Assembly (NCBI RefSeq): GCF_030052815.1
Contig: NC_079503.1
Coordinates: forward strand, 49,518,735-49,582,734
Source: Hevea brasiliensis
Lineage: Eukaryota > Streptophyta > Magnoliopsida > Malpighiales > Euphorbiaceae
Reading direction: 5' to 3'
Length of the DNA: 64,000 bases
Shown here: one piece after another, positions 1,009-61,888 of the stretch
How the letters are laid out: each line of letters begins with the position of its first letter
Numbering within the stretch: the first letter of the stretch is position 1
Notes under the pieces: generated by a model
What the model was told of the DNA's origin: nothing
The model's input: only the letters and a program-made list of their open reading frames with translations
Database searches by the model: none
Translations under genes and position numbers: made by a program

Positions 1009-3790
1009 TGGTGCATAATAATAATTTAAAATGCGGTATATAAAACATTTATTGATAATTCACAATTCAAATGATTCACAATTTCATGTCACAATTTTCA
1101 AAGCTCATATAATATAAATTTGATCAAACAATTGAATAACACAGTGTTGCTAATTAATAATACAACTTAGGTCATGACACAAACTTTTCTGAACATGCCG
1201 TGTTGTACACCACGATAAGGCATACTCACCCTACTAATCGAAATCAATGAGGGAGGTGGCTAGCTAGCTAATGAGAACTCATCTATACTCACCTCAGACT
1301 GACATGTCAAAGAGGGAGGAATATAGTGTACCTATCAGAGCACTTGTAGGCGTTACGTATCGCCATCCCTGCAAGCTCCTGAGTTCACGCGTGAGAGTTC
1401 CCAGGAATTATAGGCATTAACTATCGCCGTCCCTACTTTGCTCTAATACCACTAAACACAATTTATCTCAAAATTTCCATTTTCAAAGTAGGCAACACAA
1501 TAATTTCCAAATAAAATTCCCAAAGCCAAAATAATAAAAAATTATTCATAACTCATTTCTCCAAATAAATTTTCTAGTAAAAGCAGTGAATATAAAAAGT
1601 ATTATGCACAGACCTGGTTTGAGTCACCTCTAGGCCTTGACTCAATGTTCCTTATGCTTTTCAATATCCTTTTCAACTGAAACACACAATTTGAAGTGTT
1701 TCAGTACTCATTTAAATTGTCTCTGACAATAAGATTCAATATTTAATTTATTTAATTCTATTGTTTTTCTTAGTCAATCTATAATGCTGACCTTTGATGC
1801 ACTCTAGGTGAATTAGGTTTAATGTTACCAATATGTCACATTTTGCATTTCAATATGCTAACAATATAGTGCAATTTACCATTTTTACAAGTTAGCATTC
1901 ATTGCCAAATTATTTCAAGCATCATTGTATGTAAATGTCAAGTTCTCAATTTTTGTTTACTAGATTGGTCTAGCTTAAAGTCCTATTTCTCTTGGTTTTT
2001 AGCTTCTAGTCAAAGAAGGAAAATTGTAGCTCTCTGTCTTATTGCAATCGGGACAAAATTTCAGGTCATTATGAGTTGTATAGACCAAGATATGGTCAAT
2101 TTACTAAAGCTGGACAGATTGCACTTAAATGGCAACTTTAGGTCATTTTTAGGTCATTTCTGGTTATGGCAGTTTTTATACCCGAATTTGTGCAAGTCTT
2201 TTGACTTGCTTATGGTCATTTCTGGGTTTTGGTGTCTTCATAAGAGTTGTAGCTCTGTGTCTAGTCTATTCATGGTAAAAAGTTTAGGTCATTTGGACCT
2301 GTTTTGAGTGAGTTATGGCCAAAACACTAACTGCTGCCCAAATGGTCAATTTTCAGGCTTTCAAGTCACTAATCCGGATTTGGTCATTTTTAAGGTCAGT
2401 TTCTAGGCAGAATTTTGGCAACATTTCCACATGAAAGTTGGCCTATTTGGTGTCTAGTTTCACCCCCCATTGGCCTCATACCAATTGGGTTCAGAATTTT
2501 GCACTTATAACCTAATTTAGTTACTGCCAACAACACACAACCTGTATAAGACAACTACACTTCCAATTTGACATTCTTTCTCCTCCTCATGACTTCATTA
2601 TTCATTCATAGCACTTCTACAAATACTAAACACAATTCCAGCAAGCATATTGGGTAGAACACTCAAGTGCTCAATGCACACAATTCACCATTAAAGTCCA
2701 AAATTCACATCTACCCAAATTCAATGTACATCAACACTTATTTTACACATACACTTCCATGGCAATTATACAAACTGCCCACAATTCAACACCATCATAT
2801 TTCATTAATAAACTTCATATTCACACACAAAAATTCATGATATTATAGGCTGCCAAACATGGCAGTTTGCCAAAGCTTTAAGGTCCCATTTCAAACCCTT
2901 CATTCAAGCACTAACATGCACATACTTGGATATTAACCTACTACAACTTTTATTTGAGTTAAGCAACCTTAATTCCCATCCATTAAATATAAGAATAAGT
3001 CACTAACCATGCATTTTCATGGCTGCCAAAACTAAGGTTCACCAATAATCAATCATTTCCTCAAATTTTCTTAGCAATTCAACTTACCCAAAGCTCAACA
3101 CAAGGATTAGTGAAGGAAAATGGGATGATTAAGCACTAACCTTTTTTGAGCTTCAACAAAACTTCATTAAATCCTCTTTTTTTTTTTGCTTCCAACATGC
3201 TGCCCAAGGTGTGTGTACAAGCTTTAATGAAGAAACCAAGTGGAAATGAGGCTTGAATCATGAGTGCATGGTGGTGGAGTGAGGTTTGGCCATGGAGGAT
3301 TTCCATGGTGTTTCTCTCTGCTGGTTTATTTCCAAGGTTGAAGATAAACATTTCTGTCTCAAATTGGCTTATATTTGTGTCCCAAAATCTGAGTTAGTGG
3401 AGCACTAACCATAAATTAATGATTTAATTACTTAAAGTTCCATAATTTGCACATTTGCCTCATTTCTTCCACTATTTATAAAATGTACTTCATTTTTATT
3501 TTTCATGACATTTTCAAAGTGTAATATCATTTATTTTTAATGGACATTGAGGTCAAAAGGCAACTAGGTGTCAAATGACCAAAATGCCCCTCTTCAGGTT
3601 TTATTCTCGATTTTTCGGTAACACCAATTTTTGTCTGTTTCTCGATTTTCGTTTTTCTTTGTACTAATTTATTAATTTTCCTTTGATATTTCTAGTGTCA
3701 ATTACATTTCAATAAACCTTTACTTATGTCCCAAAATTTAATTCCGAGGGTTCCCTGCAGTCCTGGGGTCGGCTATTGCCAGTGCCGTAA

Positions 3791-3837
3791 CTTCCCCGTG
3801 CGGTCACCCATCGCTGCGGTGCTGGCTCGTTTAACTT
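3791..3837 (-). promoter_or_regulatory. 5S rRNA-like internal promoter block, sL1 copy
   Basis: On the minus strand it reads AAGTTAAACGAGC, then GCGATGGGTGACC, then GGGGAAGTT. These match box A and box C of plant 5S rRNA in order. It lies about 180-220 bp from the LTR start. Resemblance is seen; promoter function is inferred. Confidence 0.6.
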
Positions 3838-5005: not shown

Positions 5006-5655
5006 TGTCACACCTTACCCCTCTGTAAGGCATAACATGATCCCGTAGAATACTTAATGAACTACTGAACTTCACTTACCGATAACTCATTAAGTACCCT
5101 ACAAGGGATTTTAAAATGATTTTCTTACATTTTGGAAGTGGTGAGCATTTTAGTGAGAATTAAAAACCATTATTCAAGGTTTAAATACTAGTGAAAATTT
5201 TTGTCCATTTAAATTTTGCCGCAAATTTTATAAAAATTTTAACAGAGTTCCGTTTGTAATTGGAGAAAACAGTTCTTCAAATACCTAAAAAAAACACTTC
5301 CAAAAGTTTTTCACAACTCCTAACCTTCAATAAATCTCAATCAACCCAATTCAATCACTTCAAAGTAATTTCCACAATACAAATCAAAATTCATCATCTC
5401 AAAATTTTTAATACTTCATTCACAAGGCATAAATCATGAAATTCATATGTACAAATATTAAATTTACGAAAGGAAATCCAAAATAATATTATTACAATTT
5501 ATTTACAACTACTCAACTTACATTGATACATACAATATTTCTATATTTACATCAAAATTATCTACAAGGGTATAAACTAATACCCGTATAAAATGATCGA
5601 TGTGGTCCACAATTCGATAGTAGCTCACTCTGCTGCTTTCTCCTTGCTCTTATCT

Positions 5656-5697
5656 GCGACAGCAAAATAAGCTATCGCTGAGTATAAAAATACTCAG
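5656..5697 (-). other. Conserved double hairpin, Gy-B 3' LTR copy
   Basis: GCGACAGC (5656-5663) pairs with GCTATCGC (5671-5678) allowing one wobble. CTGAGTA (5678-5684) pairs perfectly with TACTCAG (5691-5697). TGGTGCA follows. Confidence 0.6.
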
Positions 5698-8233
5698 TGG
5701 TGCACAATAAAAATTTAAAATGCAATACATAAATCATTCATTGATGAACACAATTTGAATACTTCTCAATCACATTTCACAACTATCAAAGCTCATAACA
5801 ATTCCATTTAGTCAAATAATTTATTAAACACAGTGTTGCCAAAATCATATACACAACTTACGCCATGACACAAAATTTTCGATCAATGTCGTGTTGTACA
5901 CCACGACAAAGCAATCTCAACCCCATTAATCGAAAATCAATAAGGGAGGTGGCTAGCTAGCTAATGAGTACTCATCCGATCTCAACATCAACTGGCAAGC
6001 CAGAGAGGGAGGAAAATAAATGATCTCAACCCCATAAATGGAGGAGGAATAATGTGATACTGTCATGCTAAGTGTGAACATAAAATCAATTCAAAACAAT
6101 TTATTCAAACAATTTATGAGAAATCTGATCAATTTCCAAAGTCACATTTACGAATATAAAATGGCAGCACAGTACATAATTAATCAAAGAAGTCAAATTT
6201 TTGAGATTAAAATATTTAAACAATTATTATTGTGCACAAACCTGACGGGAGTCACCTTTAGGCCTTGACTCAGTCTCTTTGAGTTTCCAAGTCTTTTTCA
6301 GCTGAAACACAGTTTCACAGTGTTTCAGTACCATAACTTAGCATAAATCCAAAAATAAATTTCACTTCATTTTTACCTAGCTTTAATGTACTAATTTCGA
6401 CGTTCTCGAAGTTTATGTGTTTCGGGTTACTATTCACTACACTATTCAAGTCAAATTGTTGACTTTTTAAGGCTTAATAGGTATGGGAACTCCCACTTCA
6501 CCCACATACCACATTTTGGTCATTAAATTTGTTGGTTTTTGTCATTTTCTCAAAGATTAAATCCTTTTGGCCAAATTGTCAAATTTTCAGTTTTGGTGCT
6601 CCAAGTTGCACTGTTCCATTGGCAATTTTACTGTTGGAATTTGGCAAAACTTCCTTATAGAAAATGTTCCTTAATGTCTTAAGTTTATTCTCATTTTTGG
6701 ATCACCTCAATTGGAGTTTTGTAGCTCAAGTTATGGCCATTTGAACTAGGGCTGCCGGATTGAAAACAACCCAAATTTTCTGGGCAATTCTAGTGCTGGC
6801 AGATTTGAGTCACCAACTTGGGGTGGCCAAATGGCTTGGTTGCTGGCAGAATTTGGACTTGTGTTCCTCATGAAAGTTTTAGGTCTATATCTCATCTAAC
6901 CACTGGTAAAATTTCAGGTCAATTTGACCTATCTAGTTCGAGTTATGACCAAATGAATAAACACTGTTCATTTGGTCAGTTTGTACAGTGGCAGACTGCT
7001 CTTATTCAACTTTGGTCAATTTGTTTACTAGGTTTTGGTCACTTTTTGGGCATGGTTCCTAAATGAAAATTGTGTCATTTTATGTCTATTTTCATCCCCA
7101 ATTGGTACCATATCAATTGGACTTGTAAAATTTTAGTTTTTGTCCTTCAAAGTTGACTTGGTCATGCTGCCAGAAGCATGACCATTCAACCTCCGAATTT
7201 GGCTTCACTTCCAACAATTCAAACACAACTCATTTGGTCACAATTGACCATTTTTCACTTCACAATAGGTCAAACATGCCATTTACTCATTTCTTACATT
7301 TTTTGTTCACAAACCCTAAGTCCCAAAACTCTAACTCAATTATTGCAATTAACTAAATTCAAAGCTCTCAACCATAATCAATAAACTAAATAAGGTTTTT
7401 AAACTCATTCAAACCCATTAAATTCATGCAAATCATGGTCCCCTTCAAGCTGGCCGAAAATTCAATAGTGGTCCTTCCCCCATATTTTCATTTCATTTAA
7501 TTAATTCTAAGCTCATTTCCACAACTAATGATGCATTTAAAGAAATAAATTGTAAGTTAGCACACTAACCTTTCTTAGATCTTCAAAACCCTATCTTTAA
7601 CTCTTCTTTCTTCTTGTAATCTTCTTCTCAAGTTGCAATAACAAGCTCTAGTGAAGTTTTTAGGGGATTTATTAAGGTTGAGTGGAGGAATTAAAGCTTA
7701 AGTGCAAGCTTTAATGGAGGATTAGCAATGGTGAAATGAAGGAGAGAGTGAGGCGGCACCAAGGAGAAGAAGAAGAGATTTTTCTATTTTTTTTTCTTTT
7801 GTTTTCTTTTATCAATTTTGCTTATGGAAAACCACAAAATCTAATTTAATAAATATTTAATTAATTTAGTTATGGCATCATGCATGAGGTCATGCATGAT
7901 GTCATCACCTTTTTACTTTTTGATTTTCCTCTTCTTTTTTTTTATTAGTTTTTTAATTTAATTCTCGATTCGGAAATTTTCTTTTCTCCGATTTTATTTG
8001 ACAGTTAGGTCAGGAGTCAGCTCTCTGGGTCAATTAACCAAATTGCCCCTCGCCGGTTCATCCCGGTTTGCAAATAATTCCATATTTCTTCCGGCTCCCT
8101 GAGCTAATTATTTGACTGGCTTAACAGTTCTTTTTCGTGATTTTCTCTTTTCCACTGTGTTCATAATGGTCCTAAGGATAGCAGCGTCACATTTTACGAT
8201 TCGAAATTTGAGTTTAAAACGACTTCGCAGTCG

Positions 8234-8280
8234 TTCCCGAGGAGGTCACCCATCGCTGTGACTCTCGGCTCGTTTAACTT
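8234..8280 (-). promoter_or_regulatory. 5S rRNA-like internal promoter block, Gy-B 3' LTR
   Basis: On the minus strand GAAGTTAAACGAGC, then CGAGAGT, then GATGGGTGACCTCCT, then CGGGAA. The 15-mer GATGGGTGACCTCCT (8240-8254) is identical to box C of plant 5S rRNA as I know it, and CGAGAGT also occurs between the boxes of 5S rRNA. This is the clearest box C match in the window. Confidence 0.68.
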
Positions 8281-8300
8281 CTTATGTTCTGTTTTTCTTA

Positions 8301-8306
8301 TTTATA
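8301..8306 (-). promoter_or_regulatory. TATA-like box in Gy-B LTR
   Basis: TATAAA on the minus strand, about 20 bp upstream (in element sense) of the 5S-like box A and about 145 bp from the LTR start. The other copy is at 16642-16647. If used, U3 would be very short and most of the LTR would be transcribed leader. Inference only. Confidence 0.4.
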
Positions 8307-8452
8307 CTTAACTAATTGAACATTACTAATTATTTGTGTTTATGGATTCTCTAGTTGTCTTAAGTATGGTTCTAATCCCCTTAATTGTCCGGACCGACAT
8401 CGGTCACCGGAACAGTAAAATATACCAGGCTATACAAATAGGGGTGTTACAA

Positions 8453-8513: not shown

Positions 8514-9879
8514 CTATGGGTGTTGTTTCCTCATGTTCTCCTCTCGTTCCTAAGTAGCTTCCTTGCCCGAATGATGGTTCCACAGCACTTTTACCAATGG
8601 TATCTACTTGTTCCGTAGCTGTTTCACCTCATAAGCCAGAATCTTTATGGGTTCTTCTTCATATGTGAGGTCTGGATTTACTTCAACTTCTTCTACTGGT
8701 AGTACATGAGATGGGTCTGATCGATACCTCCTCAACATAGACACATGGAAGACGTTATGTATCTTCTCCAACTCTGGAGGTAGTGCCAAATGATATGCCA
8801 AAGGACCCACTCTTTCCAATACCTCATATGGCCCGATAAAACGAGGACTTAGTTTCCCCTTTCTGCCGAATCTCATAATCCTCTTCCAAGGAGAAACCTT
8901 GAGGAAAACTTTTTCACCCACTGCATATTCAATATCCCTTCTTTTCAAATCAATATAGGACTTCTGATGGTCTGATGCAGCTTTAAGTAGGTCTCTGATC
9001 ACCCTGATTTTCTCTTCAGTCTGTTGAACAATTTCGGGTCCAATCATTTTTCTTTCACCCACGTCATCCCAACACAACGGGGTTCTACATTTCGTGCCAT
9101 ACAAAGCTTCATATGGAGGCATCCCAATGCTTGATTGGTAGCTGTTGTTGTAAGCAAACTCAATCAAAGGCTAGTGTGTATCCCAACTACCCTCAAACTC
9201 AATCACACAAGCCTGTAGTATGTCCTCCAAGATCTGAATTACCCTCTCAGACTGGCCATCTATCTGTGGGTGGAATGCAGTACTGAAGTTCAATCTAGTT
9301 CCTAGGGCTCTCTGAAGACTACCCCAGAATCTAGAAGTGAACCTAGGATCTCTGTCTGATACAATGGATACTGGCACTTCATGAAGTCTCACAATCTCAT
9401 CAATGTACAACCTGGCCAATCTGTCTAAACTGTAGTCCATTCGAACTGGCAGAAAATGAGCAGACTTAGTCAGTCTGTCGACAATGACCCACACTACATC
9501 ATGACTCTTCTGTGTCCTCGGAAGTCCCATTACAAAATCCATTATTATTCTCTCCCATTTCCATTCTGGCACTGGTAGTGGATGTAACAACCCAGTTGGT
9601 ACTTGATGCTCTGCCTTTACTTGCTGACAAGTCAGGCATTTGGATACAAACTCTGCCACATCTCTTTTCAAACCCATCCACCAGTAATGCTCCTTTAGCC
9701 CTCTATACATTTTTGTACCACTTGGGTGCATAGCAAAAGGAGACTCATGTGCTTCTTTCAAAATGATCTGCCTCAAATCAACATCATTAGGAACACACAC
9801 TCTACCCTGGTGTAGCAGTAGACCATCACCTCTAATTGAGAACTCTGGTTTCTTGCCCTGCTGGACTTCTTCCAATAGC
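8514..9879 (-). pseudogene. Gy-B integrase and chromodomain
   Basis: The HHCC zinc finger is intact (His in [11 protein letters not shown] near 9730-9755; CLTC near 9635). The catalytic core shows MDFVMGLP (about 9520-9545), [12 protein letters not shown] (about 9325-9365) and [12 protein letters not shown] with the Glu (about 9235-9275). TAG 9171-9173 cuts the core end at a Leu codon. The C-terminal domain has KLSPRFIGPYEVLERVG and HNVFHVSMLRRY. The chromodomain (LRNK, then PLVKVLWNHHSG) is broken by stops at 8604 and 8550. In chromoviruses this domain guides insertion to heterochromatin. Confidence 0.9.
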
Positions 9880-11399
9880 TTCTGATACCTTTCATCATTC
9901 TGAGTAGCCATTTTGATCTGATCAATCAACACTGGCTGTATATGCCATGCAACTGCTGTCTGCCCCTCATCATTAATCTCTAAACTGGCATGTAATGATC
10001 TCAACTCATGTACCAAAGACAAAGGAGTAATCTGTAGACTCGCCATAGTCTTGCAACTTAGGGCGTCAGCCACAACATTAGCTTTCCCTGGCTGATAGTC
10101 TATTAGACAATCATAGTCTTTTATCAACTCTAACCATCTCCTCTGTCTCAAATTCAACTCTTTTTGGGTGCCCAAATACTTCAAACTCTTATGATCTGTG
10201 TAGATGTAACATTTCTCCCACTACAAATAATGTCTCCAGATCTTAAGAGCAAACACAATAGCTGCAAGCTCCAAATCATGTGTTGGATAAATCCTCTCAT
10301 GCAGTTTTAGCTGGCGTGATGCATACGCAACAACATTTCGATCTTGCATCAACACACAACCTAACCCATTATGAGAAGCATCGCTGTAAATTGTATATTC
10401 TTTACCCGGTGTAGGTAAAGTCAGGACTGGAGCCTCAGTCAAACATCTCTTCAATTCATCAAAACTTTGCTGGCATTTGTCCGTCCACTGAAATTTCACA
10501 TCCTTTCTAAGTAGCTTGGTCAATGGAGATGCCAACATGGAGAATCCCTTCACAAATCGACGATAGTATCCAGTTAACCCTAGAAAACTGCGAATCTTTG
10601 TGACATTTCTGGGTGGCTTCCAATTAAGGACGGCTTCAACCTTACTTGGATCTACCTTGATGCCCTCTTCTGATACTACATGCCTCAAGAAAGATATCTC
10701 CTTCAGCCAAAATTCACACTTCGACAGTTTGGCATATAGCTGTTTCTCCCTCAAAGTCTGTAGTACAATCCGCAGATGTCTATCATGGTCTTCTGTATTC
10801 CTCGAATAGACCAATATATCATCAATAAATACCACAACAAACTGGTCGAGGTATGGTTTGAAGATAGTGTTCATCAGATCCATAAAAGCAATCGGAGCAT
10901 TAGTTAACCCGAATGGCATGACCAAGAACTCATAATGGCCATAGCGGGTTCTGAAGGCAGTTTTAGGTATACTCTGCTCTTGTACTTTCAGCTGATAATA
11001 ACCTGATCTCAGGTCAATTTTGGAGAACACAGCTGCACCCCTCAACTGATCAAATAGGTCATCAATGCGGGGCAATGGGTATCTATTCTTTATTATCACC
11101 TTATTCAACTGCCGATAGTCAATGCATAACCGGAGAGTGCCATCTTTCTTCTTAACAAACAACACTGGCTCTCCCCAAGGTGACACACTAGGGCGGATAA
11201 AGCCCTTATTAAGCAGCTCTTGCAACTGCACTTTCAATTCTTTTAGTTCTGCTGGTGCCATTCTGTATGGTGTTATGGAGATTGGGTCCACACCAGGCAT
11301 AACATCAATTTCAAACTGCACTTCTCTTTCTGGAGGTAATCCTGGCAACTCATCAGGAAACACATCCGGAAAGTCACATACAGTAGGAATGTCCTTCAG
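9880..11399 (-). pseudogene. Gy-B reverse transcriptase and RNase H
   Basis: The RT is complete: [18 protein letters not shown] (about 11100-11155), [15 protein letters not shown] (about 10985-11030), [11 protein letters not shown] (about 10890-10925) and the catalytic FIDDILVYS (about 10800-10830, the YxDD box). The thumb/connection motif [16 protein letters not shown] is at about 10545-10590. RNase H begins with the first Asp in [10 protein letters not shown] (about 10370-10400) and contains [24 protein letters not shown] at 10221-10223, at a Tyr codon in the related Gy-C, interrupts RNase H between its active-site motifs. The TDHKSLKYL motif and [13 protein letters not shown] follow in the same frame. 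Confidence 0.92.
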
Positions 11400-13145
11400 T
11401 GCTGGACTCCCCACTTGGGTGTCTATCACATGTGCTAAGTACGCCTCACACCCTTTCCTAATCATTTTTCTAGCCAGTGCAGCTGAAATGATGTTTGAAG
11501 GCAGTAACTGCCTCTCCCCATGTGTTACTACATCACCATACGGAGGAAGACCAAAAGTGACTGTCTTCAATCTACAGTCAATCATGGCGTGATGCCTGGC
11601 TAACCAATCCATGCCCAAGATAATGTCATAATCTCTGAAGGGCATTTCAATTAAATCAGATAGAAAAGTGTGTCCTTGGATCACCAAAGGACAGTCCCTA
11701 TATAGCCTATTTACCCTGACCTCCTGGCCTAATGGGGTAGTTACTAGCACATCATAATCCATTGGTACACACTGAATAGCAGTAGAACACATCACCCTAG
11801 CACTAACATACGAATGTGTCAAGCCAGGATCAAATAACACATACACATCTTGGTCAAGGATGGAGAAAATACCAACTACTACATCTGATGTTTCAGCTTC
11901 CTCCCTCTGACGCATGGTATACACTTTGACTGGTGTGCCACTGGGTGCTGGCTGGTTAACAGTGCTTTGACTTCCAGGAGTGTTACCAGGACCCCTACCT
12001 CTGCCTCTACTTCTAGCAGCAGACTGTGACCCTCTAGGTGCAGAGACTTGGGCTGATCCTTCCGATGTAGCAAAAGATCCAGACTGGTGCAGACTAGTAC
12101 AATCTTTAGCGAAATGTCCGCTTCCTCCACAGTTAAAACATGCTCCGGTGGCCTTGAAGCAAACCCCACTATGAGTTTTACCACAAGTTTCACACTGCCG
12201 AACTGATAGAGATCCTCGAGAAGCTTGTTGGGTCGGCTGACCAGACCGGGGTGGTCTTTGGCCAAAAAATCTGCCTCTGCCGGATCTACAGGAGCTGGAT
12301 ACCCCAAACTGTTTTCTCTTTCCAGATCCACTTTCAGATGCTTGTCCAGTAGTCTTTTCAGTCTTATCTTTCTCTTGTGAACCCTTCTTCACTGCCCCTT
12401 CAGATTCTATCCTTTCTAGTTCCAAGGCCTGTGAGATCAATTCAGCAAAATTCTGATGTTGAAAACCCACGACTTGCATTCTCAAATTCGGCCTTAATCC
12501 GGACTCAAACCTCTTACATTTGTCTCTGAGGGTGGAGACTAAGCTTCCAGCATAGTGGCTTAGCCTTGAGAAGTCTCTCTCATACTCTGCTATGGTTTGG
12601 TCCCCTTGTTTCAAACTCAGGAATTCTTGCAATTTCTTATCTACATATGCATCAGGAACCCATTTCTGCCTGAATTCCCTCAGGAAGTCTGTCCATGTCA
12701 GCACAGGTGGCTCAACTAAGCTGTGGGGGATGGTCTTCCACCATTCATATGCATCCCCTTGTAACAAAGAAACAAAATACTCGAACTTCATCTCTTCCGT
12801 ACACTGCAGCTTTCTGTAAACTCGTTCCATTCTTTCCAACCACTGTTCTGCCTCCAGTGGATCCACAATGCCTTTAAACTCGGTGGCCCCAAATTTCATC
12901 AATTTTTCATACTGCCGAGCTGAGGACTGTGGTTGTGTTACAGGTACTGGCATTTGAGCTTGGGGTGGCACATTACCCGCCATTTGCTGGAAGAACACAG
13001 CCATCTACTGTACAAATTGAGCAGGAAACTGCGGTGCTGGTGCAGGAGATACAGTGGCTGACCCACTCACGTTCTGGAGTGCTGGGGCTTCCCCTTGAAC
13101 CTCAGCCTCAACAGATTGTTCTTTGGAATGATCTCCTCCTTCCAT
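11400..13145 (-). pseudogene. Gy-B gag and protease region
   Basis: The leader peptide from ATG 13145 ends at TAG 13005-13007, directly before a second Met (13004). Gag then shows the retrotransposon gag core ([16 protein letters not shown], about 12715-12760, and [18 protein letters not shown], about 12575-12640). A CCHC knuckle [14 protein letters not shown] lies at about 12100-12150 and binds element RNA. A basic RG-rich stretch follows (about 11990-12020). The protease has the active-site motif [11 protein letters not shown] (about 11810-11850); DPG in place of the usual DSG/DTG is common in related plant gypsy elements. The flap-side motif IILGMDWL is near 11600-11640. Confidence 0.9.
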
Positions 13146-13315
13146 TCCGTTTTCTCAAAATTTGTACTTCCTGAGATTAAACATAAGGAGGTTGACCTCC
13201 GTTAGTGCATATTCATGATGTAAATACGTCATATGTATCAATTTAAAGACACTTGAGCAATTGTACTTATCAAAGAAATATTAACATACATAGTCAAAAT
13301 TTATTGCAAAACCTG

Positions 13316-13327
13316 GCTCTAATACCA
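13316..13327 (-). promoter_or_regulatory. Gy-B primer-binding site
   Basis: Minus-strand TGGTATTAGAGC lies 8 bp inside the 5' LTR. It differs in one base from TGGTATCAGAGC, the complement of the 3' end of plant initiator tRNA-Met, which primes minus-strand DNA synthesis. Confidence 0.88.
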
Positions 13328-13370
13328 CTAAAACATGTCACACCTTACCCCTCTGTAAGGCATAACATGA

Positions 13371-13440
13371 TCTCGTAGAATACTTAATGAACTACCGAAC
13401 TTCACTTGTCGATAACTCATTAAGCACCCTACAAGGGATT
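13371..13440 (-). other. U5 long hairpin, Gy-B 5' LTR
   Basis: Arm GTAGAATACTTAATGA pairs with TCATTAAGCACCCTAC around a loop of about 30 bases, with outer bases TCTC/GGGA. It starts 35 bp from the LTR/PBS border, so the transcript would have a stem-loop directly upstream of the primer site. Confidence 0.6.
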
Positions 13441-16400
13441 TTAAAATGATTTTCTTACATTTTGGAAGTGGTGAGCATTTTAGTGAGAATTAAAAACCAT
13501 TATTCAAGGTTTAAATACTAGTGAAAATTTTTGTCCATTTAAATTTTGCCGCAAATTTTATAAAAATTTTGACATAGTTCCGTTTGTAATTAGAGAAAAC
13601 AGTTCTTCAAATACCTAAAAAAAACACTTCCAAAAGTTTTTCACAACTCCCAACCTTCAATAAATCTCAATCAACCCAATTCAATCACTTCAAAGTAATT
13701 TCCACAATACAAATCAAATTTCATCATCTCAAAATTTTTAATACTTCATTCACAAGGCATAAATAATGAAATTCATATGTACAAATATTAAATTTACGGA
13801 AAGAAATCCAAAATAATATTATTGCAATTTATTTACAACTGCTCAACTTACATTGATACATACAACATTTCTATATTTACATCAAAATTATCTACAAGGG
13901 TATAAAATAATACCCGTACAAAATGATCGATGTGGTCCACAATTCGATAGCAGCTCACTCTGCTGCTTTCTCCTTGCTCTTATCTGCGACAGCAAAATAA
14001 GCTATCGTTGAGTATAAAAATACTCAGTGGTGCACAATAAAAATTTAAAATGCAATACATAAATCATTCATTGATGAACACAATTTGAATACTTCTCAAT
14101 CACATTTCACAAATATCAAAGCTCATAACAATTCCATTTAGTCAAATAATTTATTAAACACAGTGTTGCCAAAAATCATATATACAACTTAAGCCATGAC
14201 ACAAAATTTCCGATCAATGCCGTGTTGTACACCACGACAAAGCAATCTCAACCCCATTAATCGAAAATCAATGAGGGAGGTGGCTAGCTAGCTAATGAGT
14301 ACTCATTCGATCTCAACCTCAACTGGCAAGCCAGAGAGGGAGGAAAATAAACGATCTCAACCCCATAAATGGAGGAGGAATAATGTGATACTGTCATGCT
14401 AAGTGTGAACATAAAATCAATTCAAAACAATTTATTCAAACAATTTATGAGAAATCTGATCAATTTTCAAAGTCACATTTATGATTATAAAATGGCAACA
14501 CAGTACATAATTAATCAAAGAAGTCAAATTTTTGAGATTAAAATATTTAAACAATTATTATTGTGCACAAACCTGACGCGAGTCGCCTTTAGGCCTTGAC
14601 TCAGTCTCTTTGAGTTTCCAAGTCTTTTTCAGCTGAAACACACAGTTTCACAGTGTTTCAGTACCATAACTTAGCATAAATAAAAAAATAAATTTTACTT
14701 TATTTTTACCTAGCTTTAATGTACTAATTTCGACGTTCTCGAAGTTTTTGTGTTTTAGGTTACTATTCACTACACTATTCAAGTCAAATTGTTGACTTTT
14801 TAAGGCTTAATAGGTATGGGAACTCCCACTTCACCCACATACCACATTTTGGTTATTAAATTTGTTGGTTTTCGTCATTTTCTCAAAGCTTAAATCCTTT
14901 TGGCGAAATTGTCAAATTTTCAGTTTTGGTGCTCCAAGTTGCACTGTTCCATTGGCAATTTTACTGTTGGAATTTGGCAAAACTTCCTCATAGAAAATGT
15001 TTCTTAATGTCTTAAGTTTATTCTCATTTTTGGATCACCTCAATTGGAGTTTTGTAGCTCAAGTTATGGCCATTTGAACTAGGGCTGCCAGATTGAAAAC
15101 AACCCAGATTTTCTGGGCAATTCTGGTGCTGGCAGATTTGAGTCACCAACTTCGGGTGGCCAAATGGCTTGGTTGCTGACAGAATTTGGACTTGTGTTCT
15201 TCATGAAAGTTTTAGGTCTATATCTCATCAAACCACTGGTAAAATTTCAGGTCAATTTGACCTATCTAGCTCGAGTTATGACCAAATGAATAAACACTGT
15301 TCATTTGGTCAGTTTGTACAGTGGCAGACTGCTCTTATTCAACTTTGGTCAATTTGTTCACTAGGTTTTGGTCACTTTTTGGGCATGGTTCCTAAATGAA
15401 AATTGTGTCATTTTATATCTATTTTCATCCCCAATTGGTACCATATCAATTGGACTTGTAAAATTTCAGTTTTGGTCCTTCAAAATTGACTTGGTCATGC
15501 TGCCAGAAGCATGATCATTCAACCTCCGAATTTGGCTTCACTTCCAACAATTCAAACACAACTCATTTGGTCACAATTGACCATTTTTCACTTCACAATA
15601 GGTCAAACATGCCATTTACTCATTTTTTGCATTTTTGGTTCACAAACCCTAAGTCCCAAAACCCTAACTCACTTAATTATTGCAATTAACTAAATTCAAA
15701 GCTCTCAACCATAATCAATCAACTAAATAAGGTTTTTAAACTCATTCAAACCCATTAAATTCATGCAAATCATGGTCCCCTTCAAGCTGGCCAAAAATTC
15801 AATAGTGGTCCTTCCCCCATATTTTCATTTCATTTAATTAATTCTAAGCTCATTTCAACAACTAATGATGCATTTAAAGAAATAAATTGTAAGTTAGCAC
15901 ACTAACCTTTCTTAGATCTTCAAAACCCTATCTTTAACTCTTCTTTCTTCTTGTAGTCTTCTTCTCAAGTTGCAATAACAAGCTCTAGTGAAGTTTTTAG
16001 GGGATTTATTAAGGTTGAATGGAGGAATTAAAGCTTAAGTGCAAGCTTTAATGGAGGATTAGCAATGGTGAAATGATGGAGAGAGTGAGGCGGCACCAAG
16101 GAGAAGAAGAAGAGATTTTTCTATTTTTTTTTTCTTTTGTTTTCTTTTATCAATTTTGCTTATGGAAGACCAGAAAATCTAATTTAATAAATATTTGATT
16201 AATTTAGTTATGGCATCATGCATGAGGTCATGCATGATGTCATCACCTTTTTACTTTTTGATTTTCCTATTCTTTTTTTTTTCTCTTAGTTCTTTAATTT
16301 AATTCTCGATTCGGAAATTTTCTTTTCTCCGATTTCATTTGACAATTAGGTCAGGAGTCAGCTCTCAGGGTCAATTGACCAAATTGCCCCTCGCCGGTTC

Positions 16401-16574
16401 ATCCCGGTTTGCAAATAATTCCATATTTCTTCCGGCTCCCTGAGCTAATTATTTGACTGGCTTAACAGTTCTTTTTCGTAATTTTCTCTTTTTCACTGTG
16501 TTCATAATGGTCCTAAGGACCACAGCGTCACATTTTACGGTTCGAAATTTGAGTTTAAAATGACTTCGCAGTTG

Positions 16575-16621
16575 TTTCCGAGGATGTCACCCATCGCTGT
16601 GACTCTCGGCTTGTTTAACTT
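16575..16621 (-). promoter_or_regulatory. 5S rRNA-like block, Gy-B 5' LTR
   Basis: Minus-strand GAAGTTAAACAAGCCGAGAG, then GATGGGTGACATCCT, then CGGAAA. Slightly more decayed than the copy in the 3' LTR. This is the copy positioned to drive the element. Confidence 0.6.
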
Positions 16622-16792
16622 CTTATGTTCTATTTTTCTTATTTATACTTAACTAATTGAACATTACTAATTATTTGTGTTTATGGCTTCTCTAGTTGTC
16701 TTAAGTATGGTTCTAATCCCCTTAATTGTTCGGACCGACACCGGTCACCGGAACAGTGAAATATACCAGGCTATACAAATAGGGGTGTTACA

Positions 16793-20480: not shown

Positions 20481-20530
20481 GACTTCCCGGTGCGGTCACC
20501 CATCGCTAGGGTTCTCGACTCGCTTAACTT
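20481..20530 (-). promoter_or_regulatory. 5S rRNA-like internal promoter block, sL2 copy
   Basis: Minus strand: AAGTTAAGCG (20521-20530), GATGGGTGACC (20494-20504), GGGAAGTC (20481-20488). All three words are identical to 5S rRNA box A, box C and the following bases, in the same order. Box A to box C spacing is 26 bases against about 33 in 5S rRNA; box C to GGGAAGTC is 5 against 4. Confidence 0.7.
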
Positions 20531-22412: not shown

Positions 22413-22768
22413 TGAAACTTTGGAGAAGTGGAAGGAGCATGATATGAGAGTTAAGTGTTACATGCTTGCTTCCATGAGTAATGAGTTACAGAAGCAGCAT
22501 GAGAACATACAGAGTGCGAGTGAGATCCGCCTTCATCTACAAGAGTTATATGGTGAGCACAGCAGGAATGCTAAGTATGAGATATCTAGGCAGCTGTTCC
22601 GCATGAGGATGTCTGAGGGATAGAATGTTGGGGATTATGTCCACAAGATGATTCGGCTAATTGAGCAGCTGGAACATCTTGACTTTAACATGGATTTCCA
22701 ACTGCATACGGATTTGATCCTTCAGTCCCTTCCTGAGTTTTTTTGGGAATTTTGTAACAAATTTCCAT
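22413..22768 (+). pseudogene. Cop unit 1 gag, central part
   Basis: Begins inside gag at the codons for ETLEKWKEHD and continues with CYMLASMSNELQKQHENIQS and YEISRQLFRMRMSEG, the copia gag core (UBN2-like). TAG at 22621-22623 replaces a CAG present in unit 2. Near 22738-22745 a longer T run than in unit 2 shifts the frame. Gag would form the particle shell. Confidence 0.88.
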
Positions 22769-23780: not shown

Positions 23781-24368
23781 TGTGACACCCCTTACCCGAC
23801 TACAGTGTAGCCGAGCAAGTTATGCCACTCAGTGTGTCGGAGCACTCTATTTTTATCTTAATTCATTTTTATCGTAGTTTTGAATATAACTTGTGAAATA
23901 TAATTCATTTATTGAAATTGTAATTTATTTGAGGTTCCGAAAATTTTAAAGAAAATCTGGCGGAGTACCGGCTAAAAATGGAGAAAACAGTTCTTCAGAA
24001 CCTGTGAAAAACACTTCTAATAATCATATTCATCTATTCACAAACTCCAATATCAAAATCTCAATATTTTTCAACCATTCGTTTCTCAATCATTCATCAC
24101 ATTTGATAGTCATGTATGATCCAGATCAATATTCACTTTTCCATTTACAAACACAATTTTGCATTATTTACATGAAAATCAAAATACATTACATAAGTTT
24201 CATTTACACAAAAGAAAATAAAAATCAATTACAAAATACCAAAATGAAGCCTAGTGTCCTACCAATGCACTGTAGACGGTGAGGTGACACGGACACTATG
24301 CAGAACTGTGAACTGCCTTACCGAATCTGTGGTCTACTGGGCCCTCTGTCCAAATCTTCAGTACCTAC

Positions 24369-26796: not shown

Positions 26797-26844
26797 AACT
26801 TCCCTCTGGATTACCCATCGCTTGGGCACCGGCTCATTTGACTT
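26797..26844 (-). promoter_or_regulatory. 5S rRNA-like block, sL3 copy
   Basis: Minus strand: AAGTCAAATGAGCC, GCGATGGGTAATCC, GAGGGAAGTTG. A weaker match than in the sL2/Gy-B families but in the same order and position. Confidence 0.5.
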
Positions 26845-32300: not shown

Positions 32301-32842
32301 TTTTCATTTCTCTTTTTTTTCTATTTATTTTTTCATTAGTTCTTTAATTTAATTCTCGATTCTGAAATTTTTTTTTCTTCAATTTTATTTGATAGTTAGG
32401 TGAGGAGTCATCTCTCAGGATCAATTGACCAAATTACCCTTCGCCGGTTTGACTCGGTTTACAAATAATTCAATATTTATTCTGGCTCCCTGACTTAATT
32501 ATTTGACTGGCTTAACAATTCTTTTTTGTGATTTTCTCTTTTTTACTGTATTCGTAATAGTCCTAAGGGCTGCGGCGTCACATTTTACTATTCGAAATTT
32601 GAGTTTAAATCGACTTCGCAATCCTTCCCGATAAGGTCACCCATCGCTGTGACTCTCGGCTCATTTAACTTCTTATGTTCTGTTTTTCTTATTTATACTT
32701 AACTGATTGACAATTACTAATTATTTGTGTTTATGGCTTATCTAGTTGTCTTAAGTGTGGTTCTAATCCCCTTAATTATCCAGACCGACTCCGATCACCG
32801 GTATAGTGAAATATACCAGGCTGTGCAAATAGGGGTATTACA
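29314..32842 (-). repeat. Gy-C 3' LTR (3,529 bp)
   Basis: TGTCACACTTTACC to GGGGTATTACA, followed by the polypurine tract. Related to the Gy-B LTR but clearly diverged. Contains a U5 hairpin (about 29348-29417), double hairpin (about 30034-30073), 5S-like block (32624-32671) and a TTTATACTT (TATA-like on minus) near 32690-32700. ORFs at 30169-30414, 30884-31150 and 32130-32339 show no domain. Confidence 0.93.
32624..32671 (-). promoter_or_regulatory. 5S rRNA-like block, Gy-C 3' LTR
   Basis: Minus strand: GAAGTTAAATGAGCCGAGAG, GATGGGTGACC, CGGGAAGGA. Box C core is exact. Confidence 0.6.
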
Positions 32843-32859: not shown

Positions 32860-33505
32860 TAAATTTCGTCTCGAAATTTCACCTAGTATTAATCTCTGAA
32901 CAGCTGTGGGTGTTGTCTCCTCATGTCCTCCTCTCGTTCCCATGTAGCCTCCTCGCCCGAATGATGGTTCCACAGCACCTTCACCAATGTTATTTGCTTG
33001 TTCCGTAGTTGTTTCACCTCATAAGCCAGAATCTCTATGTGTTCTTCCTCATATGTGAGGTCTGGATTCACTTCAATTTCCTCTACTGGTAGTACATGAG
33101 ATGGGTCTGATCAATGCCTCCTCAACATAGATACATGGAAGACATTATGTATCTTCTCCAACTCTAGAGGTAGTGCCAAATGATATGCCAAATAACCCAC
33201 TCTTTCTGGAACCTCATATGGCCCGATAAAACGAGGACTCAGTTTCCCCTTTCTGTCGAATCTCATAATCCTCTTCCAAGGGGAAACCTTGAGGAATACT
33301 TTCTCACTCACTGCATACTCAATATCATTAGGAACACACATTCTGCCCTGGTGTAATAGTAGACCATCATCTCTTATTGAAAATTCTGGTCTCTTGCCCT
33401 GTTTGACTTCTTCCAATAGCTTCTGATACTTTTGGTCATTTTGAGTAGCCATTTTGTTCTGATTTGATCAATCAACACTGGCTGTACATGCCATGCAATT
33501 GCTGT
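32860..33505 (-). pseudogene. Gy-C integrase remnant with intact chromodomain
   Basis: The frame 33111-33452 runs from the RNase H-integrase linker ([14 protein letters not shown]) straight into IEYAVSEKVFLKVSP, the integrase C-terminal domain. By comparison with Gy-B (8936 to 9785) 849 bp are missing, exactly 283 codons, covering the zinc finger and the whole catalytic core. After a break near 33072-33110 the frame 32889-33071 carries an uninterrupted chromodomain (KQLRNKQITLVKVLWNHHSG, then EATWEREEDMRRQHPQLF). So the chromodomain survives without a catalytic integrase. Confidence 0.9.
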
Positions 33506-36796: not shown

Positions 36797-36808
36797 GCTC
36801 TGATACCA
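36797..36808 (-). promoter_or_regulatory. Gy-C primer-binding site
   Basis: Minus-strand TGGTATCAGAGC, exact complement to the initiator tRNA-Met 3' end, 8 bp inside the 5' LTR. Confidence 0.9.
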
Positions 36809-38089: not shown

Positions 38090-41000
38090 TGTGACACCCC
38101 TTACCTGTGTACAGTATACCCGAGTAAGTAATGCCACACGGTGTACTGGCACATTCTAATATACCTTAAATAATTTATACCATGCTTGTGAATATAATTT
38201 ATGAAATATAATTTATTTTAGCCATTTATCAAAAGTATTATTTATTTGAGGTTCCGAAAATTTTAAAGAAAATCCGGTAGAGTACCGGCTAAAAATGGAG
38301 AAAACAGTTCTTCGGAACCTGAAAAAAAACACTTCCAATATTCACATTCAATCATTCCCAAACTCCAATATCCAAAATCTCAACAATTTTTCAATTTCAG
38401 GTCTCAACAACCTTTTCATTTCTCAAACATCCATTTCTCAGAATACTCTATACAAACAACAAATAAATGCTCAAATTTTGCATTCATGACCATAACTTTC
38501 ATTATTTACATGAACATCAAAATGCATTACATAGATCCAAATACATATGAGAAAATAAAAATTTAGTTACAAAATGACAAAATGACACCTAGTGCCCTAC
38601 CAATGCACTGCAGGTAGTGAGGTGACACGGACACTGTGCAGAACTGCAGGATGGACTCACCCAGTCTGCGGTCTACTGGGCTCACGATCTGTATCTCCAG
38701 TACCTACGCATGGCAAAAGCAACGCGCTAAGCAATAATGCTTAGTGGTGCAATAATATGATAAAAGAAAATAGCTGAAAGTAAGTATGTATAGAATGTGT
38801 ATGATTTCTTTATTTGGTATTGGTATATCTATTATTTCATTAACTTTGCCCACTTTTATTCATTTGGTTGCCCAAGTAACCTACACTAGACGCATCGGAT
38901 CGATAAACGGGTAAACTGGCACTGGGTATCGAATACCTCGGGCCGTCACACCATCGGTCACATATGCATCTCCCGGTGTGCAACAGAACAGCTAACAAGC
39001 TGTAAATAATATCAGGCACAAGGCCAAGTCTCAATGCAAGGTCAGAATGGCTAAAAGCCATAAAATCACAGAATGGCATATTGCCATGTGCAGTACTGCT
39101 AACTGAACCCTATTGGCATGCCAAACTATCCAAACCAATCTTGTTAGGTATACTAGGGCATTTGAAACTTTTAAATTCTTCAATTTGTGAATTTCATGTT
39201 TTGGTGTTACTATTCACCTCATTGGTCAACAAAAATGTTGACTTTTGGATAGAAAATATGTACATTGACTTTGGCACTCCCAACATACCACATTTTGTAT
39301 TTAAAACTTGTTGGCATTAAGCGTTAATACCATTTCTAAGCATTAAACCAAAGGAGCAGATTTTTCAGATTTTGTACCATAACTTTACTGTTCCATTAGG
39401 AACTGTTACAGTGGAAATTTGAGGAATTGGTAAACATAAAAGTTGTTCCTTATTTTGTCTAGTTGAATTTCCTTTTTTGAATCACTCCATTTGGAGTTTT
39501 GTAGCTCCAGATATGGTCCAAAAACCACAGCTGGCCGGATTTCCATTTTGCAGAAATTACCATATCTACAGTAACATGAACAGTGATTGTGACTGCATAT
39601 TTGAATAGGTTCTGGACATAATTTGGTGGTAGGTTTCTTCATGAAAGTTGTTTGTCTATCTCTTAACTTGTTGCTGTAAAAATTTTAGGTCAATTGACCA
39701 AATCTACAGTGAGTTATGGCTTCATTTGGTCATTTCTGCAGGTGCTATTGCAGGGGATCCGGATTGAGGCCAACTTTTGGTCCTCTTGCTTTGGTCTTTT
39801 GGGCATGGTTTCTTCAGCAAAAATGTGCCATTGTAAGCCTAGTTTCATGTCCAATTGGCCAAACACCAATTGGACCAACACAGCCAAAGATATGGCAGTC
39901 CAAGTGGACTGAAATTTCAGTCACTCTACTGCTGTCTTTAGGCAGCCTACACACTCACTTTGCCATGCTATATTTCAGTCCAAATTGTGGTCAACTTACC
40001 TCAAATGGTCACTAATTGACCATTAAAAGGTTCTCTAACAATTTCCTAAGCCAAGTCAAATTTTCACTTCTCAAAACCCTAATTTCCATATGAGTTTTCA
40101 CAACATGCTTGAATTAACTATCTCATTCACTATCCACATGCATATATGGTTTAAACATAATCTCTAATCCACTTTAAGTCCATCAAAACACTCCATTATT
40201 GTTCCTACAATAGGGCAGCCGAAATTTATGGTATGTATACACATAATTATTGTTCATTTTAGTTACAAATTCTTACTCAATTCAAGTTACTAATCATGAA
40301 AATAAAGAGTTTTAGGTATCTAATGCACTAACCTTTAAGTGGCACTTTTTTCCCAAGTTTAATCTTCACTTTTCTTGTACTCTCTTGGCTGCAAAACACT
40401 TCCTCTAGGTCCAAGGATTCATTTTAGTGTTGGGGTCTTGAGGAAATATGGTGAGGAAGCATGAGAATGAAAGCTTGCAAAGAATGGCTATGGTGGAAAC
40501 CCTATCTTCTCTCTCTCTATGTTTTGGCTGGTTTGAAGGAGGTGGTTGCTGTATTTTTGGTTAATTTGGTCTTCATTTAGTCTCTTTTATTAGTTAATAA
40601 TATGGTTGTTTAATTATAATTGGTGGAGACTTTCAAATGACATCATAATGATGTCATATTTGGCATTTTTATGGATTTTTCTTTTCTTTTCATCACTACT
40701 CAATTTCAATTTAATTTTTAGTAATGTTTCTTCATATTTTATGTCATATTAATTATTTACTTAACTGGACAAGTTGGCCAAAAATCACCTCTGAAGGCGA
40801 AATGACCAAAATGCCCTCCGTTTGGCTTAACGGGTCAAAATTGGCTGTACCGATTGAAAAATTTTCCTAAATATTTTCTTGGCATTCTAATGCCATAGGA
40901 ACCTCAATGACCCTTCTCTGGAGTCCCAAAAATTATTTTATAATTTTTCCCCCGGGTCTAGGGCTCCTCGTTGCGAGAACCGCAACTTCCCTCTGGTTAC

Positions 41001-41199
41001 CCCTCGCTAGGGCACTGGCTCGTTTAATTTGGTTGTATTTTATTTCTAAAATTTTTATTAAATTTTTCTTATTAATATTTGAATTGATTATGGTCCCTCA
41101 CTTAAGTTTAAATATTTTTCCGGACATTCTAGTTGTCCGGATCGACACTGGTCACCGGAACAGTAGAATGTACGGAATTGCTACCGGGAGGGTGTTACA
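38090..41199 (-). repeat. Solo LTR sL4 (3,110 bp), TSD GTTTC
   Basis: TGTGACACCCCTTACCTG to GAGGGTGTTACA, flanked by GTTTC (38085-38089 and 41200-41204). Same family as sL3. It lies inside the 5' LTR of Gy-C and is the innermost element of the deepest chain. Second stem of the double hairpin: CTAAGC (38727-38732) with GCTTAG (38739-38744). No gene seen. Confidence 0.95.
40985..41030 (-). promoter_or_regulatory. 5S rRNA-like block, sL4 copy
   Basis: Minus strand: AAATTAAACGAGCC, GCGAGGGGTAACC, GAGGGAAGTTG. The most diverged copy together with sL3. Confidence 0.45.
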
Positions 41200-43133: not shown

Positions 43134-43181
43134 CTTCCCGAAAAGGTCACCCATCACTATGACTCTCGGCTCATTTAACTT
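43134..43181 (-). promoter_or_regulatory. 5S rRNA-like block, Gy-C 5' LTR
   Basis: Minus strand: GAAGTTAAATGAGCCGAGAG, GATGGGTGACC, CGGGAAGGA, with GTGATGGG in place of GCGATGGG. Confidence 0.55.
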
Positions 43182-47890: not shown

Positions 47891-50579
47891 TACATATGTT
47901 GCCAATTTCATTTCAAAGCTTATAGCATTTTATTACAATTATTCAGATTTCATGGCCAATGTTTACTGTCTATTGGACCAAGCTACAGTGTAAATTTAAC
48001 AAATTTCTCTTCATTAAATTGTTTCTCATTGTGTCTTCTTTAATTTTATTTTTGAATCACTCTATTTGGAGTTATATAACTTATGGTCATTTAACCATAA
48101 CTAGGTCAAAGTTAAAATTTGACTTCCTTATTAGGCATTTTCGGTTCTGACTTTACTAATTTATTTGGACTATTTGTAATCACATTGAGGTCTAGCATTT
48201 TTCATAAGTATTATTGCCCTATGTCTTAGGGTCAATCGGAAATTTTACTTGTAATTTGTGAAGTCTTATAGAATTATTTATAGCCAAATTATTGACTTAG
48301 ACTCAAAGGTCTTATATTGGCATGGTCCTTAATTAGGTCAATGGCTTTGACCTTAAATTCTGACCTTATACATTTATAATTTGAGGAAGCTGTCTAAAAT
48401 AAAGTTTTATGTCTCTTTCTTAGCTTTCCAGATTGGCATGGCTCATTACATTGGGAGATTTCTTATGGGAGATATGCCTATTTGAATTTTCTGGACTTAA
48501 TGGTCAATTGTACCAATTCCAGATTTTATACATCAACTTGATCAAACTAATTGACCTATTTTTCTTGGTTTTGGTCCAATTACCAATTTTGTAGATCTAT
48601 GTCATATTGAAATTTTGGCACTAATTTCAGGTCATTTGGAATTTTTTGGGCCAAGTTATGGTTATTTTACTAATGCTGGTCAAGTTGCACTTATTTGACA
48701 ATTCTGGGTCACTTTTAGGTCAAAGTCAATTCAGCCAGTTTTTGTAACCCAACTTTGGTAATCATTTTGACTTGGTAATTGGCATTTCTAGGCTTGGTGG
48801 TCTTTACCAAAGTTGTAGCCCTATGTCTAAGCTTTCCAAAGGTATAAATTTTAGGTTATTTGGACAGTTTTGAGTGAGTTATAGTCATTTTAATAACCAC
48901 TGTTCATATAGTCAATTTCTAGGTTCTCAAAGTTTCAATTCCGGATTAGGTCATTCTTTTAGGTCACTTCTAGGCAGAATTTGGGCAACACTTCTACATG
49001 AAAGTTGGCATATTTTATGTCTAGTTTCACTTCTAATTGGCCTCATACCAATTGGAGTCACAACTTTACACTTATAACCTAATTATACACTGCTAACAAT
49101 CATAACTTGATAAGAGAATTTACACTCCCAATTTGGCAATCCTCCTCCTCCCGATACTTCAATATTCATTCTTGGCACTTCTATATTTATTCAACACAAT
49201 TCTAGCAAAGTAAATTGGGTAGAATGCTTAAGATTTCAAGGTCACAATACTCCATTAATATTCAACATGTAAGCCAACCCAAATTCAATATACATACTCA
49301 TCAAATTGTCACATACACTTCCATAACAAATACACACATACTGCCCCCAATTCAACTCTATCATATTTCATGAATAATTTTCATCAATTCACATACAAAT
49401 TTAAGGGTTTACAAGCTGCCAACCATGGAAGTTTACTAAGGTATTCAATTCCCTTTTTAAACTCCTAATTTCAAGCACTAACATATATATACATGGGCAT
49501 TAACTTGCTACACTTCAATTTGAGTTAATCAACCTTAATTCCCATCTATTTGAGGTAAGAAATAAACTCAAGTAAACCAAGTTTCATGGCTGTCGAAATC
49601 ATAGTGTAGCAAAACTCAAACATTTCCTCACTATTTCTTAACCATTTAACTTGTTTCAAGCTTAACACAACTTTTACTTAAGAAATTTTAAGAAAATAGC
49701 ACTTACCTTGTTATGGAGCTTGATCAAACCTCAACTAATCCCCTTCAAATTACTATCAATCTCTTCCTTGTGATGTTGTGAGAAACTTTAATGAAGAAAT
49801 TAAGTGGAAAGCATGGCGTGAAGGTGGTTGCATGGGAGGTTAGGAAGCTTCAGCCATGGAGTCCTTCAATGGTGTTTTGGCTGGTTTGTTTTCCAAAGGT
49901 TGAAGATGATTAAATATGTCCCATTTACCTTTTATAGGTGTCCCAAATTTCTACATTAGTGGAGCACTAACTATATTTTAAATATTAATTAATTAAAGTT
50001 TCACAATTTATATTTTATGCCTCAAACTTTTATTATTTGCATTATATACTACCATTTTAATTTTCATGACATTTTCAAAATTTAATGCCATTTATTTTTA
50101 ATGGAAATTTAGGTCAAAAGCCAATCCTAGGTGTTAATTGACCAAAATTCCCCTCTTCAGGTTGCATTCCCGATTTTTCGGTAACACCGATTTTTATCGG
50201 TTTCTTAGTTTTTCATTTTTCTTTGTACTAATTCATTTTTTTTTTTGACATTTCTAATGTCAATTATACCTCTATAGGCCTTTAATTATGTCTTGAATTT
50301 TAATTCCGAGGGTTTCCCCCAGTCCTGGGGTCAGCTATTGCCTGCGCTGTAACTTCCCGGTGCGATTACCCATTGCTTTGGTGCCGGCTCATTTAACCTA
50401 GTTTCATTTCCTCTCTTTTATTTTTTCTTTAATTTTTGTTGTATTTTTTTTTATTTATTTCATCATTTCATGCCTGTTTATTATCACTGAAGTGTAGTTC
50501 CAGACATCCTAACTTGTCCATACCGACATTAGGTCACCGGAGTAGTCGAATATACAGATTACATAAAGTGAGTGTTACA
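47891..50579 (-). repeat. LTR fragment Y (sL1-like family)
   Basis: Resembles sL1 over its right two thirds (for example the stretch with CCTCATACCAATTG and the 5S-like block 50352-50398) and ends GTGAGTGTTACA at 50579. The left end with TGTCACACC is absent: the copia inserted here, and the far side was lost in the deletion at 22412/22413. ORF 48874-49077 has no domain. Confidence 0.8.
50352..50398 (-). promoter_or_regulatory. 5S rRNA-like block, fragment Y
   Basis: Minus strand: GGTTAAATGAGCC, GCAATGGGTAATC, CGGGAAGTTAC. Decayed but in order. Confidence 0.5.
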
Positions 50580-61839: not shown

Positions 61840-61888
61840 ACTTCCCGGTGTGGTCACCCATTGCTAGGGTTCTCGGCTCGCTTAACTT
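61840..61888 (-). promoter_or_regulatory. 5S rRNA-like block, sL5 copy
   Basis: Minus strand: AAGTTAAGCGAGCCGAGAAC, AATGGGTGACC, CGGGAAGTC. Box A word AAGTTAAGCG and GGGAAGTC are exact. Confidence 0.62.

Follow-up and report, generated by a model that had tools for sequence, protein, structure and literature searches.

Why should the LTRs of large, protein-coding retrotransposons carry, always at the same place, a short block that reads like part of a 5S rRNA gene, and what might such a block do there? The question is raised by eleven LTRs in the window, which is the whole stretch of 64,000 nucleotides analysed in this study (C11:49518735-49582734 of the plant genome G000, 1.88 Gb in 755 contigs). 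The window contains nested Ty3-gypsy elements, most of them on the minus strand, and its features are collected in Table 1.

The block and the elements that carry it

The first-pass annotation had described the block in eleven LTRs at one common place, and a pattern search found it at 11 of 11 coordinates, always on the minus strand, which is the element sense. Box A begins at LTR position 170–181 and box C at 195–206, the block as a whole occupying positions 170–225 out of about 3450, i.e. within the first 7% of the LTR. Box A reads AAGTTAARYG and box C GATGGGTGACC, or decayed versions of these, and the distance from box A to box C is 25–26 bp as against 33 in 5S, a shortening of 7–8 bp. The LTRs belong to three families, A, B and C. 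The motif CGAGAG, which we take to occupy the place of the 5S intermediate element (IE), is found only in family B; most A copies carry CGAGAA, and there is none in C. A related twelfth LTR start at 56510 (−) is missing the stretch that should hold the block, and was excluded from the 5S match tests. In one LTR of family A (L017, ~850–910 (+)) the box A segment is tandemly duplicated.

Table 1. Coordinates of the blocks and of the associated features in the window.
Feature	Family	Position	Strand	LTR start	Remarks
Block A1	A	3789..3837	-	4013	5S-like
Block B1	B	8234..8280	-	8451	3' LTR of Gy-B; box A, IE-like CGAGAG, box C + TCCT
Block B2	B	16575..16621	-	16792	5' LTR of Gy-B; 5S-like
Block A2	A	20481..20530	-	20705	box A AAGTTAAGCG 20530-20521, box C GATGGGTGACC, then GGGAAGTC
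Block C1	C	26797..26844	-	27013	solo LTR; without 5S signal alone
Block B3	B	32624..32671	-	32842	5S-like
Block C2	C	40985..41030	-	41199	solo LTR; without 5S signal alone
Block B4	B	43134..43181	-	43352	5S-like
Block A3	A	50352..50399	-	50579	decayed; score within shuffles
Block B5	B	52175..52223	-	52394	5S-like
Block A4	A	61840..61888	-	62063	5S-like
Predicted Pol II TATA box	B	8299..8306	-		TATAAATA; 26 nt upstream of box A
5' LTR of Gy-B	B	13336..16792	-	16792	~3.46 kb; starts TGTAACACC, ends GGTGTGACA
3' LTR of Gy-B	B	5006..8451	-	8451	from repeat map; TSD at both element ends
Gy-B primer binding site		13315..13327	-		TGGTATTAGAGCC; adjoins 5' LTR
Gy-B gag-protease-RT-RNase H frame		10221..13004	-		open, 927 aa
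Gy-B remaining pol (integrase, SH3_Tf2-1)		8604..10220	-		broken by in-frame stops
Chromodomain open stretch	B	32892..33110	-		73 aa; element with 3' LTR start 32842

The best preserved carrier, Gy-B, spans 11.8 kb of the minus strand (16792–5006), with LTRs of about 3.4–3.46 kb each that are 96.8% identical and a 5-bp target site duplication (TSD), GTCAC, at 5001–5005 and 16793–16797. Its primer binding site (TGGTATTAGAGCC) and a further one at 36808 (TGGTATCAGAGC) are presumably of the Met-tRNA type. RT precedes integrase, as in Ty3-gypsy elements, and plant proteins (Theobroma, Gossypium, Hibiscus, Sesamum, Tanacetum) occur among the best 120 of 7993 RT relatives, together with one labelled Staphylococcus aureus, which is probably contamination. 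The earlier description of the LTRs as long and chromovirus-like also held, as they measure ~3.4 kb and chromodomain coding directly precedes the block-bearing 3' LTR in three copies: a family B element of the window (Chromo E 3.9e-5, 23.9 bits, slightly under the cut-off of 25.1), the sampled copy L021 with a family C LTR (28.6 bits, above the cut-off) and the sampled family A copy L026 (23.3 bits, E 6e-5, slightly under it). Since a chromodomain is encoded just ahead of their 3' LTRs, the block-bearing elements are chromoviruses, and they likely belong to the Tekay clade, an assignment suggested by LTR length and chromodomain position. According to the repeat map, Gy-B (5005/16793) and a solo LTR (17097/20706) were apparently inserted inside the internal region of an older, like element, and Copia-type pol pieces (Pol_BBD, gag_pre-integrs, RVT_2) lie at 22718–23785 and 28285–29121 (+).

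Likeness to plant 5S rRNA

Two queries were used, an Arabidopsis-type 5S rRNA and a host 5S gene read from the genome. Local alignment with shuffled controls, one of two comparisons put forward in the first-pass annotation, favoured the 5S likeness: with the Arabidopsis-type query, 8 of the 11 blocks outscored all 500 shuffles of their own sequence, the exceptions being C1 (26797), C2 (40985) and A3 (50352), which did not rise above theirs. The top score in the window, 45, came from B1 (8234) in an alignment to 5S nt 39–101, and compares with 38 or less over 300 scans of the whole window with shuffled 5S; with the blocks masked, the best 5S score fell to 26. B4 (score 31) drew level with the top scorer among 500 shuffled 5S sequences. 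When the 11 LTRs were taken together against host 5S, their mean of 25.4 (top score 39) was reached by none of 3000 shuffled 5S sequences, in agreement with the claimed 5S likeness, and with the three families weighted equally a single shuffle in 3000 did as well. By family, the likeness held for B (0/3000 shuffles as good) and A (8/3000) and failed for C alone (2219/3000). The Arabidopsis-type query gave 0/3000 for the mean, the equal-weight score, family B and family A, and 1740/3000 for family C, which counts as 5S-like only by way of its alignment to families A and B.

A second sample consisted of 20 LTRs from randomly chosen stretches of two contigs, 200 kb in all, 3 of 23 sites having been dropped where the match fell short of the block. 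None of 1500 shuffles matched their mean 5S score, and Gumbel extrapolation gave 3e-7 with the host query and 4e-9 with the Arabidopsis-type one. The match lies in nt 49–104 of plant 5S. The 5' half (nt 1–48), already thought to be lacking, is absent from the LTRs, with 1094 of 1500 shuffles scoring as well. Reverse-complemented, the entire 5S gene scored 16.9, near the forward null mean of 16.0, and its 5' half 16.7 against a forward-half null mean of 13.6 and maximum of 18.1. The other comparison put forward, a search with the Rfam 5S model RF00001 by Infernal, went against the likeness, with no hit either over the whole window or over two block stretches; nor did any other known RNA match better, all Rfam matches over the tested blocks being weak (E above 1). 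A 5S rRNA gene or pseudogene was rejected on account of the missing 5' half and the silence of RF00001.

Beyond the boxes, GGGAAGT (5S nt 97–103) follows box C in families A and C, in B5 and in copy L018. The match past box C, assessed over 25 nt by shuffling, had p values of 0.0001–0.005, with 0.0001 for GGGAAGTC in A2, and 0.10 in B1. Ahead of box A, CAGAAC (5S nt 39–44) is found in B1 (p 0.0006) and weakly in B5 (0.03), and is absent in L031 (p 0.33). Because these motifs and the CGAGAG of family B continue the match outside the boxes, capture of a 5S segment followed by small deletions is favoured over convergence, in which the block would bind some other conserved factor and have come to resemble 5S without common origin. 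Such a coincidence seems rather unlikely. It would sit well with a match that lies largely within two short boxes, a linker that differs from that of 5S and is shorter, the lack of a match in family C and the silence of RF00001, but the joint shuffle tests on the window and on the 20 sampled LTRs speak against chance, as does the continuation of the match beyond the boxes in A2 and B1. Among 31 copies, 22 are nearer to Arabidopsis-type 5S, 6 nearer to host 5S and 3 equally near to both, so no recent exchange with host 5S genes is visible, and ongoing homogenisation with the host 5S array was rejected on the same figures.

Conservation, copy number and spacing

The block had been regarded as the best conserved part of the LTR, and this is only partly borne out: it is the top 47-column window between families among the window copies (0.740), but the columns from ~28 are nearly equal (0.727) and lie slightly above it in the 31-copy set. 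These columns form a second GC-rich patch at LTR ~28–75 (e.g., 8424–8377 (−), TTCCGGTGACC...GTCGGTCCGGAC-like), a possible upstream enhancer. As the patch is conserved equally well, conservation by itself proves no 5S or TFIIIA role for the block. Between families the boxes share 83% identity; in flanks of 60 columns the figure drops to 47% upstream and 33% downstream.

The two boxes and GGGAA amount to 286 letters over the 11 window copies and show 20 departures from 5S. Fifteen of the departures are C>T or G>A, as in the decay of methylated DNA. Box A is exact in 14 of the 31 aligned copies, box C in 18 and both in 12, the worst copy (the sampled L021-1228) having five mismatches in box C. 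A copy as eroded as this suits a neutral relic, that is, a 5S fragment captured long ago and carried along without function, as does the fact that after insertion the block decays as other GC-rich DNA does, B1 and B2 being unlike at several of its positions in spite of the high identity of their LTRs. Such a relic nevertheless appears very unlikely, given the preservation of the boxes relative to the 33–47% of neighbouring columns and a spacing that is almost invariant across 31,550 pairs, themselves selected for exact boxes.

These pairs come from the genome as a whole, where the exact pattern AAGTTAARYGAGYC-N6..14-GATGGGTGACC occurs 31,529 times (15,849 + 15,680) and a reversed control pattern 0 times. 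Widening the gap to 0–30 added only 21 pairs, and among the matches listed the box starts, by eye, are 25 or 26 bp apart, with one at 27, and the linkers are diverse; this spacing describes pairs chosen for their exact boxes. That the matches lie in LTRs was established in the window and in the random sample. Since, judged by eye, the exact pattern is present in 9 of the 20 sampled LTRs, block-bearing LTRs may total ~70,000, a rough extrapolation from two contigs only. 5S-type control regions, for comparison, gave 105 matches in the assembly, all but 5 of those listed lying in an array on C16 at 40.7–40.8 Mb (40.716–40.829 Mb), which makes the exact block pattern ~300 times commoner (31,529 vs 105). 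Assemblies often under-represent 5S arrays.

The 5S genes themselves provided some side observations. The C16 array includes at least two gene variants in adjoining units, AAACG...AGCAGTACTAAG and AAGCG...AGCGATGCTAAG. A solitary complete 5S was found outside the array at L006 1501–1619 (G000:C4:5920671-5920789), in surroundings that look LINE-like by eye, and could be a 5S-headed retroposon or the product of a template switch. Two further lone 5S-type regions are located on C11.

Possible function and relation to known systems

The reading that we prefer, tentatively and as a possibility to which we would not give an even chance, is that a 5S internal control region (nt ~49–104) was captured into an LTR and then shortened, and that the block would now serve as a DNA element, a putative TFIIIA-type site fixing the start of chromovirus LTR transcription. 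Pol II would produce the full-length RNA, and short Pol III side transcripts are possible. Every family B copy, 13 of 13, has a TATAAA that begins 26 nt before box A (as TATAAATA in 11), from which Pol II is predicted to start within box A; a TATA box is lacking at this position in families A and C. Pol II is also the polymerase to be expected for a full-length RNA of >10 kb. Plant TFIIIA is described as working with Pol II in one case, as a 7-finger form on viroid RNA, in the available part of PMC6164485; by analogy this would be a precedent rather than evidence for the block. The preferred reading is weakened by the short spacing, the silence of RF00001, the lack of signal in family C and the one in 12 LTR starts that has no block, and equally by the second patch of equal conservation and the restriction of both the IE-like CGAGAG and the TATA box to family B.

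Two other readings share some of this evidence. The block could be a type-1 Pol III promoter, one of the roles put forward in the first-pass annotation, that recruits TFIIIA, TFIIIC and Pol III to make short LTR RNAs, perhaps 150–200 nt, in the manner of Cassandra. Box A and box C, and in family B the IE-like CGAGAG too, stand in the 5S order, and 9 of the 11 copies (all except B3 and A3) have runs of four or more T at 35–76 nt beyond the first base of box C, but such runs are frequent in AT-rich DNA. The box spacing is short, the 5S model fails, and a genomic RNA of >10 kb is hardly a Pol III product. Plant 5S genes, according to PMC13087485, have their TATA box at gene position −28; none was seen by eye in the LTRs at the corresponding distance, ~76 nt upstream of box A, and family B has its TATA at −26 instead. 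A Pol III promoter of this type is thus unlikely. The block could also act at the RNA level, as the conserved 5' end (R start) of the genomic RNA used in packaging, strand transfer or translation, and the start predicted from the family B TATA box would place it at about +1 to +45. However, in 5 of 6 blocks the predicted RNA folds were no more stable than those of shuffled sequences, the exception being A4 (z = −2.9), and a DNA-level role is therefore likelier than an RNA fold; conserved RNA structure was rejected as the main reason for the block, and a leader function seems quite improbable.

Several searches for a direct counterpart were negative. The block patterns had 0 matches in viral contig and genome contig collections; the viral contig collection held no RT-bearing loci, and the five RT-bearing genome contigs (3–5 kb, bacterial names) had nothing block-like (best 5S score 23). 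In the open-access literature, Cassandra, Ajax and Helenus were found and no block was reported in a coding element; no lead was taken from a text search with TGTAACACCCC.

Cassandra LTRs, in the excerpts available of PMC10853983, carry the A-box, IE and C-box region of 5S as a ~70-bp core within 25–75% of the LTR that tracks host 5S changes; the elements have a Met-tRNA primer binding site and no coding region, are 563–968 bp long and have LTRs of roughly 200–400 bp. The present elements resemble Cassandra in the A and C boxes of families A and B and in the Met-type primer binding site. They differ in that the IE counterpart CGAGAG is limited to family B, the box spacing is compressed to 25–26 rather than 33, and the block lies outside the 25–75% range, at no more than 7% of the LTR length. 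They are also coding, Gy-B having gag, PR, RT, RH and INT in 11.8 kb with LTRs of ~3.4 kb, and most copies (22/31) are nearer Arabidopsis-type than host 5S, unlike host-mirroring Cassandra. A Cassandra copy was rejected because the element is coding and its LTR long, and the 5S-type pattern revealed no dispersed Cassandra family among the matches listed, although divergent letters would escape it.

In the accessible sections of PMC10886601, two TRIMp3 elements are described, both non-autonomous: Ajax, of two nemertean worms, whose LTRs keep only the 5S promoter region, and Helenus, tRNA-derived and present in fungi, animals and plants. The likeness is in LTRs that include promoter sequence from a small RNA gene; the block, in contrast to that of non-coding Ajax, sits in coding chromoviruses. 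The same sections argue that autonomous partners of such TRIMs must use Pol II, and they state that an autonomous family behind Cassandra is not known. Tekay-type chromoviruses, as characterised in the available part of PMC3605345, have a Ty3-gypsy gag-pol, a chromodomain upstream of the PPT, a Met-tRNA PBS and a 5-bp TSD; gag-pol, chromodomain, a Met-type PBS and a 5-bp TSD are found here too, and that part of the source mentions no 5S-like LTR block. A plant 5S gene has box A, box C and GGGAAGT in common with the block, in the same letters and order; the block differs from it in the missing 5' half, the 7–8 bp fewer between the boxes and the silence of RF00001.

Should TFIIIA bind these blocks, this would have a bearing on 5S dosage, on the evolution of LTR promoters and on the origin of Cassandra. 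It could be speculated further, though we consider it distinctly unlikely, that in a dominant autonomous chromovirus lineage the compressed 5S (TFIIIA) region and a Pol II start form a hybrid Pol II/Pol III promoter, that its copies, numbering in the tens of thousands, serve as a sink for TFIIIA throughout the genome, and that 5S-carrying TRIMs such as Cassandra have in this lineage or its ancestor their long-sought autonomous source or helper. LTR 5S control regions were known before from tiny non-coding TRIMs, Cassandra and Ajax, in the portions available of PMC10853983 and PMC10886601. What appears to be new, judged from the open-access literature, is a compressed 5S-type LTR control region present at very high copy number in a chromovirus lineage of the autonomous type.
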